Positions 3,929 to 39,466 of a DNA stretch of 39,870 nt are shown piece after piece. The position numbers and the translations under genes were made by a program. The notes under the pieces were generated by a model, which saw only the letters and a program-made list of their open reading frames with translations, was not told the origin of the DNA and made no database searches. Every line of letters starts with the position of its first letter. Position 1 is the first letter of the stretch. Source of the stretch: Thermoproteaceae archaeon. GTDB taxonomy: Archaea > Thermoproteota > Thermoprotei > Thermoproteales > Thermoproteaceae. The stretch is taken from assembly GCA_020833025.1 (NCBI GenBank), contig JAJHRB010000004.1, forward strand, positions 1 to 39,870, written 5' to 3'.

Positions 3929-4275
3929 CCTCCTCCCCGCCCTAAAGGGCGGGGGCTCCCCCCGGGCGGATCACGGGTTCGCGGTTTACCGCCTTCACCC
4001 TCATAGCTTCACGGCTGGTGGGTCGAGACACCCACCCCGCTCCGCTCGTCCAGCGGTAGACCGCGGGCCGGGCCTCCGGCCCGTTACCCCTATCCCTCGC
4101 CGCGGAGAGCCCCCCGTCCGCGGCTCCCGGGGACTCGGGGATATGTAGGGACCGCGCGGGGACACACGCCTGCAGCTGGCCCCGGACGGGGCATCCCCGC
4201 GCGGGGGCGCGCATCGTCGAGACAGCGCTGTATTTTAAACTTTGCCCCGCCATGAGGGGCGAGGCTTTCAGTTGT
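3926..4275 (-). mobile_element. IS605-type remnant: both ends and a TnpB C-terminal tail, no transposase
   Basis: Read on the minus strand, the element starts with a hairpin of the GCCTCGCCC...GGGGC type (4244-4265). It ends with a perfect hairpin CCCCGCCC-TTTA-GGGCGGGG (3935-3954) followed by GAGGAGGTCA, the end typical of archaeal tnpB-carrying IS200/IS605 elements. The sequence just before that end translates as MRVKAVNREPVIRPGG plus APAL and a stop (near 3942-4000), resembling a TnpB C-terminal tail overlapping the omegaRNA region. No RuvC or zinc-ribbon sequence remains, so it is an internally deleted derivative of about 350 bp between mptE and the rpl6 promoter. Confidence 0.65.
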
Positions 4276-13581: not shown

Positions 13582-15462
13582 TCAAGGCCGTACATGCAGC
13601 TCGGAGAGGGCACGCTTGACATCCTCAACGTCAACTCTCCCCCTGTAGGCCCGCATGACCTCTCTCAGCGCGTTCACGGACCCGACCCTCTGCACGGCCT
13701 CCCTCACTATCTCCCTGACCTTCTCGTAGGGGAGCCTCGTCAAGCCCAGGCGCTTTGCCGCCTCCTCTGCCGTCTCGCCCGGCTTCATGTTCCTAAGCAC
13801 GTCCTCCACGGCCTCCTTCGTGATGACTCCCTTGTCGAGAGCCTCCAGCACTGACGCTACCTTCTCCTCGGTTATCTCAACGCCCTCCCGCGCCAGGGCC
13901 CTCGCAATGTTGATGAGCACTCGCGCTACTAGCGGCGGCGGGACCGACCTGTACCTCAACACGTACTCCTCAAACTTCTCTAAATGCGGGGACCTGACCA
14001 GCTGCAGCGCCACGTCCTTGCTGAGGCCCATCGCCGCCAGCTTGTCCAGCTTGTCCTCCAGGCTCACTCTGGCGATCTCCTCGGCCCTCCTGATTATCTC
14101 AATCGTGATCTTGACCGGCGGCAGGTCGGTCTCCGGGTACATTCTGGCGGCGCCGGGCCTCGGCCTGAGGAATCTCGTCGTGCCGTCGGGATTGGCGCCG
14201 CGGGTCTCTTCAGGCACCCCGTTCACGGCCGCGTTGAGTCTCTGCACGATAACCGCTGCCGCCTCCTCGAGCTCTCTCCTGTCAATGCCTGCCAGCAGGA
14301 CGAAGCAGCCCGTACCCGCCATTGCCTCGACACGCCTGACCTCGTCCGCCGCGATTCCGTAGCCCGGCAGCTCGTCGCTGTGCACGAGGCCTCCCAGCTC
14401 CGTCCACGCCCTCACGTAGTCGGCGAGCTCGGCGCCGAAGCGCCTGCCCGGCTGTACCTCAAGGCCGAGGAGCCCCTGAAAGCCGGGGGTCTTGACGGCA
14501 ATTACCTGCCCGCCGGCCTTGAGCGCGCTGGATATGAGCCTCGACTTGGTGTTCGCGAAGGCGGCAGTCACGTCAACGGTGGACGGCTCGAGCCCCCTCA
14601 CGCCCCTTCTCCTGAGCTCCTCTGCCATCCTGAGCAGGTTTAGCTGCCTCATCACCTCGTACTCTATGACCCTCGGTATGAGGGACAGGTCCGGCACGCC
14701 CTTTATTTCAGTCTTCGCGCCCCCGGCTATCGAGACGTTGACGTCCTGCCTGACGGTTCCCGCGCCTCTCCTGGCCCTCCCAGTTATCTTGACGCTGTAC
14801 CCTACTATCCACGCGACCTCCTCGATCTGCTGCGGGCTGTAAGTCATGGGCTCCGTCGCTATCTCCACCAGCGGTATGCCGAGCCTGTCCAGCCTGTACA
14901 CCACCGTCCTCCCCTCCTCGGCGATCTTCCTGGCGGCGTCCTCCTCGAGCGCAATTGTCTGCACCCCTACATCGTATCCGAGGATCTTCTTCCTGCCGCC
15001 GTAGGCCACGAGCACGGTCCGCTGGAATCCCGAGACGTTCGACCCGTCCACCACAATCTTGCGCATGACGTGCATCTCGTCGAAGAGCTTCGCGTTGAAC
15101 ATCTTGGCCACCGCAACGGCCGTCACGAGCGCCTCCTCGTCGGGCATGTGCGGGGGCTCCTCGTCCAGCTCGACGAGACACGTCGTGTCGCGGTATCCCT
15201 CGTAGACGGCCCGCCTCCTCTTCCTCACCTCCCACACGACGGCCGGGTCCACGGCGCCCAGCTCGCTCAGCGAGATGTTGAGGCTCCTCTCCACCCTGAA
15301 GTGGGGCTCGTCGTCCCTCAAGAGAGGCGGGCAGTGGCAGAAGAGCTTGCGAGGCGTGCTCAGCTGGACGTGAATCTCGAGGCCCACCTTGAGCCCCAGG
15401 GCCCTGTAGTCCAGTTGAGTGCCGGCAGGCACGGGGCGTGCGGGGCGTTGCTTATTAGCCAT
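13582..15462 (-). CDS. gatE: Glu-tRNA(Gln) amidotransferase subunit E
   Basis: A 626-aa GatE, the tRNA-binding kinase/transamidase subunit of the archaeal GatDE enzyme that converts Glu-tRNA(Gln) into Gln-tRNA(Gln). GatB/E signatures are GLKVGLEIHVQLSTPRKLFC and TGRARRGAGTVRQDVNVSI. The AspRS-like insertion special to GatE is seen as FLRPRPGAARMYPETDLPP. The C-terminal helical and YqeY-like tail is present (EEAAKRLGLTRLPYEKVREI). The ATG at 15462 gives the family length; an open frame further upstream is spurious. A 23-bp palindrome lies 41 bp upstream, beyond which are a small winged-helix gene and tRNA-Glu. GatD is not in the window. Confidence 0.95.
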   Translation of the reverse strand: MANKQRPARPVPAGTQLDYRALGLKVGLEIHVQLSTPRKLFCHCPPLLRDDEPHFRVERSLNISLSELGAVDPAVVWEVRKRRRAVYEGYRDTTCLVELDEEPPHMPDEEALVTAVAVAKMFNAKLFDEMHVMRKIVVDGSNVSGFQRTVLVAYGGRKKILGYDVGVQTIALEEDAARKIAEEGRTVVYRLDRLGIPLVEIATEPMTYSPQQIEEVAWIVGYSVKITGRARRGAGTVRQDVNVSIAGGAKTEIKGVPDLSLIPRVIEYEVMRQLNLLRMAEELRRRGVRGLEPSTVDVTAAFANTKSRLISSALKAGGQVIAVKTPGFQGLLGLEVQPGRRFGAELADYVRAWTELGGLVHSDELPGYGIAADEVRRVEAMAGTGCFVLLAGIDRRELEEAAAVIVQRLNAAVNGVPEETRGANPDGTTRFLRPRPGAARMYPETDLPPVKITIEIIRRAEEIARVSLEDKLDKLAAMGLSKDVALQLVRSPHLEKFEEYVLRYRSVPPPLVARVLINIARALAREGVEITEEKVASVLEALDKGVITKEAVEDVLRNMKPGETAEEAAKRLGLTRLPYEKVREIVREAVQRVGSVNALREVMRAYRGRVDVEDVKRALSELHVRP

Positions 15463-15502
15463 TTCGGCGGCGCGGGAGTCCTGCCTCTCCCGCGCCGGCC
15501 AA

Positions 15503-15525
15503 ACGTGTCCAATTTTTGGACACGA
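15503..15525. promoter_or_regulatory. Palindrome 1, putative operator upstream of gatE
   Basis: Arms ACGTGTCCAA and TTGGACACGA flank a TTT spacer, with a single mismatch at the last base. It is the reverse complement of palindrome 2 except at one end base. Its A/T core lies about 52 nt before the gatE ATG and could itself serve as a TATA-like box, so a bound protein would block gatE transcription (inference). It also sits 11 nt after the stop of the winged-helix gene. Confidence 0.7.
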
Positions 15526-15536
15526 TAGAGAGGCCG

Positions 15537-15806
15537 CTACGCCAGCTCCAGCGCCTGCACGACTGCAAGTCCCCTGTCCGTTAGCCTGTTGTACACGCAC
15601 GGGCGCCTCGCGTGGCACCTGCCCTCGTACCGCTCCACAAGGCCGCGCCTGACGGCCTCTTCCAGCGCGTCTTGCCCGTAGCCCCACTCGCCGAGCTGGC
15701 GCAAGAGCTCTCTCATGTAGGGCCATCTGCCGTGCGCGGCGTGGAACTTGTATATTGCCAGAAGCAGGCGCGCGAGCGCCCTCTCGCAGACCCCTATCTT
15801 CCTCAT
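15537..15806 (-). CDS. Small winged-helix DNA-binding protein, probable autoregulator
   Basis: An 89-aa protein with a winged-helix pattern: a first helix (ERALARLLLAIYKFHAAHG), a turn and recognition-type helix (WPYMRELLRQLGEWGYGQDA, EEAVRRGLVER), then a wing (CVYNRLTDRGLAVVQALELA) of the kind seen in archaeal transcription factors. Two cysteines (RCHARRPC) sit in the wing. The ATG at 15806 lies 26 nt from a TATA-like ATTTAAAC tract at 15829-15836. Palindrome 2 fills the space between that box and the start codon, the classical layout for negative autoregulation. Target genes are not known; gatE and itself are the obvious candidates. Confidence 0.75.
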   Translation of the reverse strand: MRKIGVCERALARLLLAIYKFHAAHGRWPYMRELLRQLGEWGYGQDALEEAVRRGLVERYEGRCHARRPCVYNRLTDRGLAVVQALELA

Positions 15807-15829
15807 ACGTGTCCAAAAATTGGACACGT
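15807..15829. promoter_or_regulatory. Palindrome 2, putative operator of the winged-helix gene
   Basis: Perfect arms ACGTGTCCAA and TTGGACACGT flank an AAA spacer. It occupies the gap between the TATA-like box (15829-15836) and the ATG (15806) of the minus-strand winged-helix gene, i.e. it would cover the transcription start. Together with palindrome 1 it brackets that gene. Confidence 0.75.
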
Positions 15830-16004: not shown

Positions 16005-16138
16005 TGGTGCCCCGGCCGGGATTTGAACCCGGGTCACGGGCTCGAAAGGCCCGCCTGAGGGCGGGAGCCCGCTATCCTTGGCCGGGCTAGACTACCGGCT
16101 GGAGTGGCGGCCGGCCACGGCTCCCGGCGCGCCGGGGC
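16005..16138 (-). tRNA. tRNA-Glu (TTC) with two non-canonical introns, one in the acceptor stem
   Basis: The 3' exon (16005-16054) has an anticodon arm CGGGC-CTTTCGA-GCCCG with anticodon TTC at 16044-16046, a T arm around TTCAAAT, acceptor strand CCGGGGC, discriminator A and an encoded CCA. Upstream, a 19-nt insert (16055-16073) separates it from the D-arm exon (16074-16094), matching intron position 25/26 known from Thermoproteales. The D-arm exon is preceded by CCGG only. The full acceptor strand GCCCCGG appears 37 nt further upstream (16132-16138), so a second intron interrupts the acceptor stem somewhere between positions 3/4 and 7/8 (a repeated CCGG makes the exact site ambiguous). A TATA-like tract near 16161-16168 puts the transcript start at about 16140, supporting this reading. 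Confidence 0.88.
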
Positions 16139-39223: not shown

Positions 39224-39466
39224 TGACCCCCTCCCCGCCCTAAAGGGCGGGGTTTCCATCGCGGGGGTCTCGACTGTTACCCCCTCCACGGGGGTTAATG
39301 GTTTTACGCCGTTGCCCGGGTTGGTGAAAACAGTGGGGTATCGCCCCACCGGCTCATCCAAAACCGAACCCCCTTTCGGGGGCACCAACCCGGGCACTAG
39401 CCAACCAGCAAGGCTGGGTTTTATAAACCTATCCTCACCCTGAAGGGCGAGGCTTGTCATGAATTG
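39224..39466 (-). mobile_element. Second tnpB-less IS605-type element
   Basis: On the minus strand the left end is ATTCATGACAAGCCTCGCCC with hairpin CCTCGCCCTTCAGGGTGAGG (39433-39452). The right end is hairpin CCCCGCCC-TTTA-GGGCGGGG (39233-39252) followed by GAGGGGGTCA. A short frame across it ends PLTPVEGVTVETPAMETPPF then RAGRGS, the C-terminal tail style of archaeal TnpB, so the omegaRNA region next to the right end is probably kept. The catalytic part of tnpB is absent. The 243-bp length and both ends intact make it a miniature derivative that could be mobilised in trans. Confidence 0.65.

Follow-up and report, generated by a model that had tools for sequence, protein, structure and literature searches.

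How does a small winged-helix gene come to lie between two mirror-image palindromes, and what would those palindromes do? The question is raised by a single locus in the window analysed here, a stretch of 39,870 nucleotides from the draft genome of a Thermoproteaceae archaeon, in which a protein of 89 aa from an undescribed family (P0001; 15537-15806, minus strand) is encoded next to gatE. An earlier note had offered two answers—a regulator that represses both itself and gatE, or a small cassette with terminal inverted repeats. Here we find that the locus is real and that it probably holds a self-controlled small winged-helix repressor together with its cognate operator.

Two palindromes of 21-23 bp flank the gene, as had been described from the sequence. 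O2 (15503-15525; core CGTGTCCAATTTTTGGACACG) lies 11 bp beyond the winged-helix stop codon and 40 bp ahead of the gatE ATG, and O1 (15807-15829; core ACGTGTCCAAAAATTGGACACGT), the putative operator, occupies the space between the TATA-like box and the ATG. The box, GATTTAAA (15836-15829, minus strand), can be read directly in the sequence; it abuts O1, and the ATG (15806) follows O1 without a gap, just as the earlier note had it. On the minus strand the order runs GATTTAAA, O1, ATG, the 89-aa gene, its stop codon (15537), O2 (15525-15503), a hairpin (15497-15468), and the gatE ATG (15462). The proposed mirror-image relation is exact for the 21-bp cores, which are reverse complements of each other; the arms are likewise real, except that the last base of O2 is A, not T, so that the tenth pair is missing and the perfect arms there measure 9 bp instead of 10. 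No match to either site is expected by chance (100 dinucleotide shuffles), and O1 and O2 are the only sites in the 1.56-Mb draft genome (G000:C19), where a search allowing up to three mismatches returned no other.

The winged-helix protein and its relatives

The AlphaFold2 model of the protein, built on a 14-member alignment, has a mean pLDDT of 87.6 and a predicted order of helix-helix-helix-strand-strand-helix (H-H-H-E-E-H), which is the winged helix-turn-helix fold expected of MarR/PadR-like regulators. The nearest solved structures in Foldseek are also MarR/PadR-like—AF1382 with a TMq of 0.70, APE_0880a with 0.68, and MepR with up to 0.72—and none of them matches at E <= 0.001. Pfam gave no family above its cut-off (the best, PF19100, scored 17.1 bits against a cut-off of 25) and NCBIfam gave no match; judged by its sequence, the protein is a member of a family unnamed in either database. 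In the literature library searched, no paper was found on this winged-helix family or on the Vulcanisaeta palindromes discussed below. To our knowledge, the regulators of this archaeal group are largely unstudied.

Homologues occur in 15 further genomes, all from other genera, and these genomes fall in a different family within the order; among them are members of Vulcanisaeta, Caldivirga, and Thermocladium, next to unnamed Thermoproteota or Thermoproteales archaea. A profile search of a 398-genome sample of the phylum placed strong matches in this order alone, with weak matches in six more distant genomes (G181, G244, G253, G304, G341, and G364); these were not accepted as family members, the conserved motif being present in G253 only. 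A viral origin of the gene was considered and set aside, as IMG/VR contains no homologue of the protein; the palindrome itself is found there on 3 contigs in its GTTACC form and on 0 contigs in its GTGTCC form. A comparison by eye of the recognition helices with the two half-site types, GTTACC and GTGTCC, showed no clear correspondence.

The 18 other genomes of the window's own family have no homologue, so the gene is present in 1 of 19. Such a distribution, with inverted palindromes on both sides of the gene, would fit a reading in which gene and palindromes form a small mobile cassette, the palindromes being its terminal inverted repeats; however, the genome holds no other copy and no solo end, the promoter lies outside the segment that the palindromes bound, and in other genera the palindrome holds a promoter position. 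Read directly, the outer flanks (...GGCCAA on the left, TTAAATC... on the right) form no target-site duplication. A mobile cassette, the alternative raised by the earlier note, is very unlikely.

Co-occurrence with the palindrome and probable self-control

The association between gene and palindrome was examined by scanning 61 genomes with the generalised pattern CGTKWCYAANNNTTRGWMACG, allowing at most one mismatch. Sites were found in 17 of the 61: all 16 genomes that gave a strong protein match, plus G044; the palindrome is thus present in 16/16 gene-positive and 1/45 gene-negative genomes (Fisher's exact p = 8e-14, a figure inflated by shared ancestry). Two genomes with marginal protein matches, G046 and G049 (E about 0.002-0.006), were counted as gene-negative. 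The sole exception, G044, is 47% complete and shares its genus with two positives; the gene was not found in it. The split is seen within genera as well: in the Caldivirga genus, G027, G028, and G037 have both gene and palindrome and G019 and G022 have neither. Outside the Thermocladium genus there are 1-5 sites per genome, the window's genome having 2.

The position of the palindrome is also kept. In homologues from Vulcanisaeta, Thermocladium, and some Caldivirga, which are 41-54% identical to the 89-aa protein, the TATA box, palindrome, and start codon follow in that order within a few bases, as in the window, with TTTATA or TTTAAA 0-3 nt upstream of the palindrome. Leaderless transcripts are common in archaea of this order; with a palindrome between TATA box and start codon, a bound protein would then cover the transcription start. 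Because of this, together with the co-occurrence and the arrangement of TATA box, palindrome, and start codon in other genera, self-repression is the best-supported mechanism, and this part of the earlier proposal is well supported by sequence comparison. We put the probability at roughly three in four that the O1/O2 palindrome is the cognate operator of a small dimeric winged-helix repressor acting on its own gene. The repressor would bind O1 as a dimer, between its own TATA box and start codon, and block RNA polymerase while O1 is occupied, so that the level of the regulator stays low; O2, just beyond the stop codon, would be a second site, most likely assisting the same local control, and gatE would be a bystander.

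Further support for this reading comes from the Thermocladium genus, where the arms are nearly invariant at orthologous sites (a hand count gave about 4 changes over 288 arm positions). Two observations count against it: most of the Thermocladium-genus sites are not placed as promoters, and in the genus of G029, G030, G032, and G042 the palindrome is found only downstream. Every paralogue in this genus whose 3' side is covered has one palindrome 121-139 bp beyond the stop codon (L008, L012, L016, L018, L021, L022, L023, and L026), in some copies directly after a T-rich stretch, and no palindrome was found upstream of the gene. A single promoter-occlusion model therefore fails to cover all members of the family.

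A self-repressing winged-helix protein would resemble the known MarR/PadR-like repressors (MepR, MexR, and PadR, and the archaeal AF1382 and APE_0880a) in its small winged helix and in a palindromic site that overlaps its own promoter—a likeness of position here, as the operator is predicted. It differs from them in having no adjacent efflux or catabolic gene, and in lacking both Pfam or NCBIfam membership and a Foldseek match at E <= 0.001. The locus thus provides a predicted regulator-operator pair for a family that has no name in Pfam or NCBIfam, and the predicted binding site is defined sharply enough for gel-shift work of a simple kind.

gatE and the neighbouring RNA genes

The gene that follows O2 is gatE (13582-15462, minus strand; Pfam GatB_N, GAD, and GatB_Yqey), and the earlier note had the regulator repress it as well. 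In that case the protein would act on gatE through O2 as well and, in this one organism, would tie its regulation to the tRNA-dependent formation of glutamine. The two genes are co-oriented, O2 precedes the gatE ATG by 40 bp, and no obvious TATA box stands close to that ATG, which makes co-transcription from the regulated promoter conceivable. Comparison with relatives points the other way: in 10 same-genus genomes neither the winged-helix gene nor the palindrome lies beside gatE, whose usual neighbour there is a ksgA-like gene, and in the other genera the regulator gene is not beside gatE. In G023 the two genes are at 2.12 Mb and 0.72 Mb, and in G025 they are on contigs 4 and 62. The proposed check, whether gene and palindrome keep their place beside gatE in relatives, thus came out negative.

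The start codon of gatE bears on the same point. Homologues in the 10 same-genus genomes begin further in, with (M/V)DY..., and the additional N-terminal stretch in the window's reading frame is not conserved; GTG at 15432 is therefore the likelier start, rather than ATG at 15462. A GTG start would put O2 about 71 bp upstream of gatE, beyond a TATA-like GCTAATAAG. We regard control of gatE as improbable; the link is a one-genome feature that finds no comparative support, and the closeness looks accidental from the sequences compared.

Several other features of the neighbourhood can be read directly in the sequence. Between O2 and gatE lies the hairpin, a G+C-rich inverted repeat with perfect 11-bp arms and an 8-nt loop (15468-15497, minus strand). 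On the far side of the regulator, and a neighbour only, is a tRNA gene (16008-16100, minus strand) that by direct reading appears to be an intron-containing tRNA-Glu(UUC); ARAGORN gave it no anticodon name, and Rfam gave a generic tRNA match only. A probable second intron-containing tRNA is found at 684-799 of the window (minus strand), its 3' part matching the tRNA-Glu query; ARAGORN and Rfam did not report it. Integration into a tRNA gene was considered and rejected, as the match to tRNA at 684-719 looks like a piece of this other intron-containing tRNA rather than an attachment repeat. Elsewhere in the window, two identical copies of a 20-bp inverted repeat, CCCCGCCCTAAAGGGCGGGG, are present at 3935-3954 and 39233-39252.

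Palindromes in Vulcanisaeta and in the Thermocladium genus

The most interesting lead lies outside the window, in Vulcanisaeta, where the promoter of the winged-helix gene is flanked by two palindromes. The 54-bp segment between them is inverted in G021 relative to G023 (98% identical when reversed, 52% forward; L132:6088-6183 and L133:6084-6179, upstream of the gene), and the flanks of the segment are collinear between the two genomes (90% and 98%). In G021, G038, and G040 the strong TATA box points toward the gene; in G023 and G031 it points away, and in the G023 orientation a weaker TATA-like TTATTTA then stands ahead of the palindrome. The segment carried with it a base from the inner end of a palindrome, which places the crossover within the palindrome. 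At least two flips would be required on the assumption, suggested by their identity, that G021 and G023 are sisters.

Both orientations of a short promoter segment between inverted repeats are thus present among relatives, in a comparison between species, and in this Vulcanisaeta resembles the invertons, such as E. coli fimS and the capsule promoters of Bacteroides; unlike in invertons, the repeats are presumed operators and the orientations come from between-species comparison alone. These observations raise the alternative that the palindromes are primarily recombination sites that bound an invertible segment, with the winged-helix protein assisting or directing the recombination and the promoter being switched by inversion. 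The inverted segment, the differing direction of the TATA box, and the crossover inside the palindrome would all fit. However, no recombinase was identified beside the locus among the listed predicted genes, of which a few were compared with Pfam; template switching can produce single inversions at inverted repeats without any specialised enzyme; in most genera the promoter does not stand between paired palindromes; and the window's own promoter lies outside the O1/O2 pair. We consider a primary role in recombination unlikely. That the operators bound an invertible promoter in Vulcanisaeta itself, so that an archaeal transcription factor would be phase-switched by inversion at its own binding sites, is a somewhat less doubtful but still rather unlikely idea. 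A survey of short inversions in 209 datasets found them in bacteria and in none of 6 archaeal samples (PMC5903667), which would make an archaeal promoter inversion notable if confirmed in cultures. The flipped promoter would be a clear archaeal case, provided that switching does occur in living cultures.

Some further arrangements were seen in relatives. Vulcanisaeta has another palindrome before thiI, which is followed by an endonuclease V gene, in four genomes (L132:10039, L134:10103, and L135 near 10200; degenerate in G023). In G027 (L141:5204) a nucleotidyltransferase-HEPN gene pair is preceded, at a distance of about 130 bp, by a TATA box and palindrome; several Vulcanisaeta genomes also have a HEPN-nucleotidyltransferase pair, there upstream of the regulator itself.

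The Thermocladium genus has far more sites, with 25-37 dispersed palindromes in each of G025, G035, and G044 (L073-L131), hybrid in form (GTTACC...GGACAC). Most are intergenic, 62 of 74 not falling within any ORF of at least 100 aa, and in about 40% a TATA box stands 2 nt upstream. Orthologous positions are occupied by many of the sites in G035 and G044 and by a few in G025; between orthologues the flanks are mostly 65-90% identical beside the nearly invariant arms, a comparison that required a site match in both genomes and so somewhat favours this result. Hand-computed densities for the three genomes, based on crude ORF-based gene calls, are about 2.3 sites per kb of intergenic DNA in convergent, 1.8 in divergent, and 1.2 in tandem spaces. 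A regulon reading of the dispersed sites was rejected, as there is no promoter bias. Rejected, too, was the idea that a distinct non-coding RNA lies beyond the TATA-bearing sites, since orthologues are not consistently more alike downstream than upstream.

These numbers, the intergenic placement, convergent spaces at least as site-dense as others, and the many sites at orthologous positions would also suit a protein that organises the chromosome or acts as a roadblock at dispersed sites, the promoter site being one among them. However, other genera have only their few sites each, the window's genome its two, and the TATA box at fixed spacing in about 40% of the dispersed sites points to transcription. 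We find such a role improbable. The Thermocladium genus resembles REP/RAYT systems and other dispersed palindromic repeats in combining many intergenic palindromes with an associated gene, and differs in that the product of that gene is a winged-helix protein rather than a transposase, and in that many sites keep their orthologous positions. These position-conserved sites raise a sharp question about the genome-wide role of the small protein in this genus. In G044 a gene whose sequence, by direct reading, resembles that of ribosomal protein uL10/P0 has a pair of palindromes upstream (L145:9802-9911).
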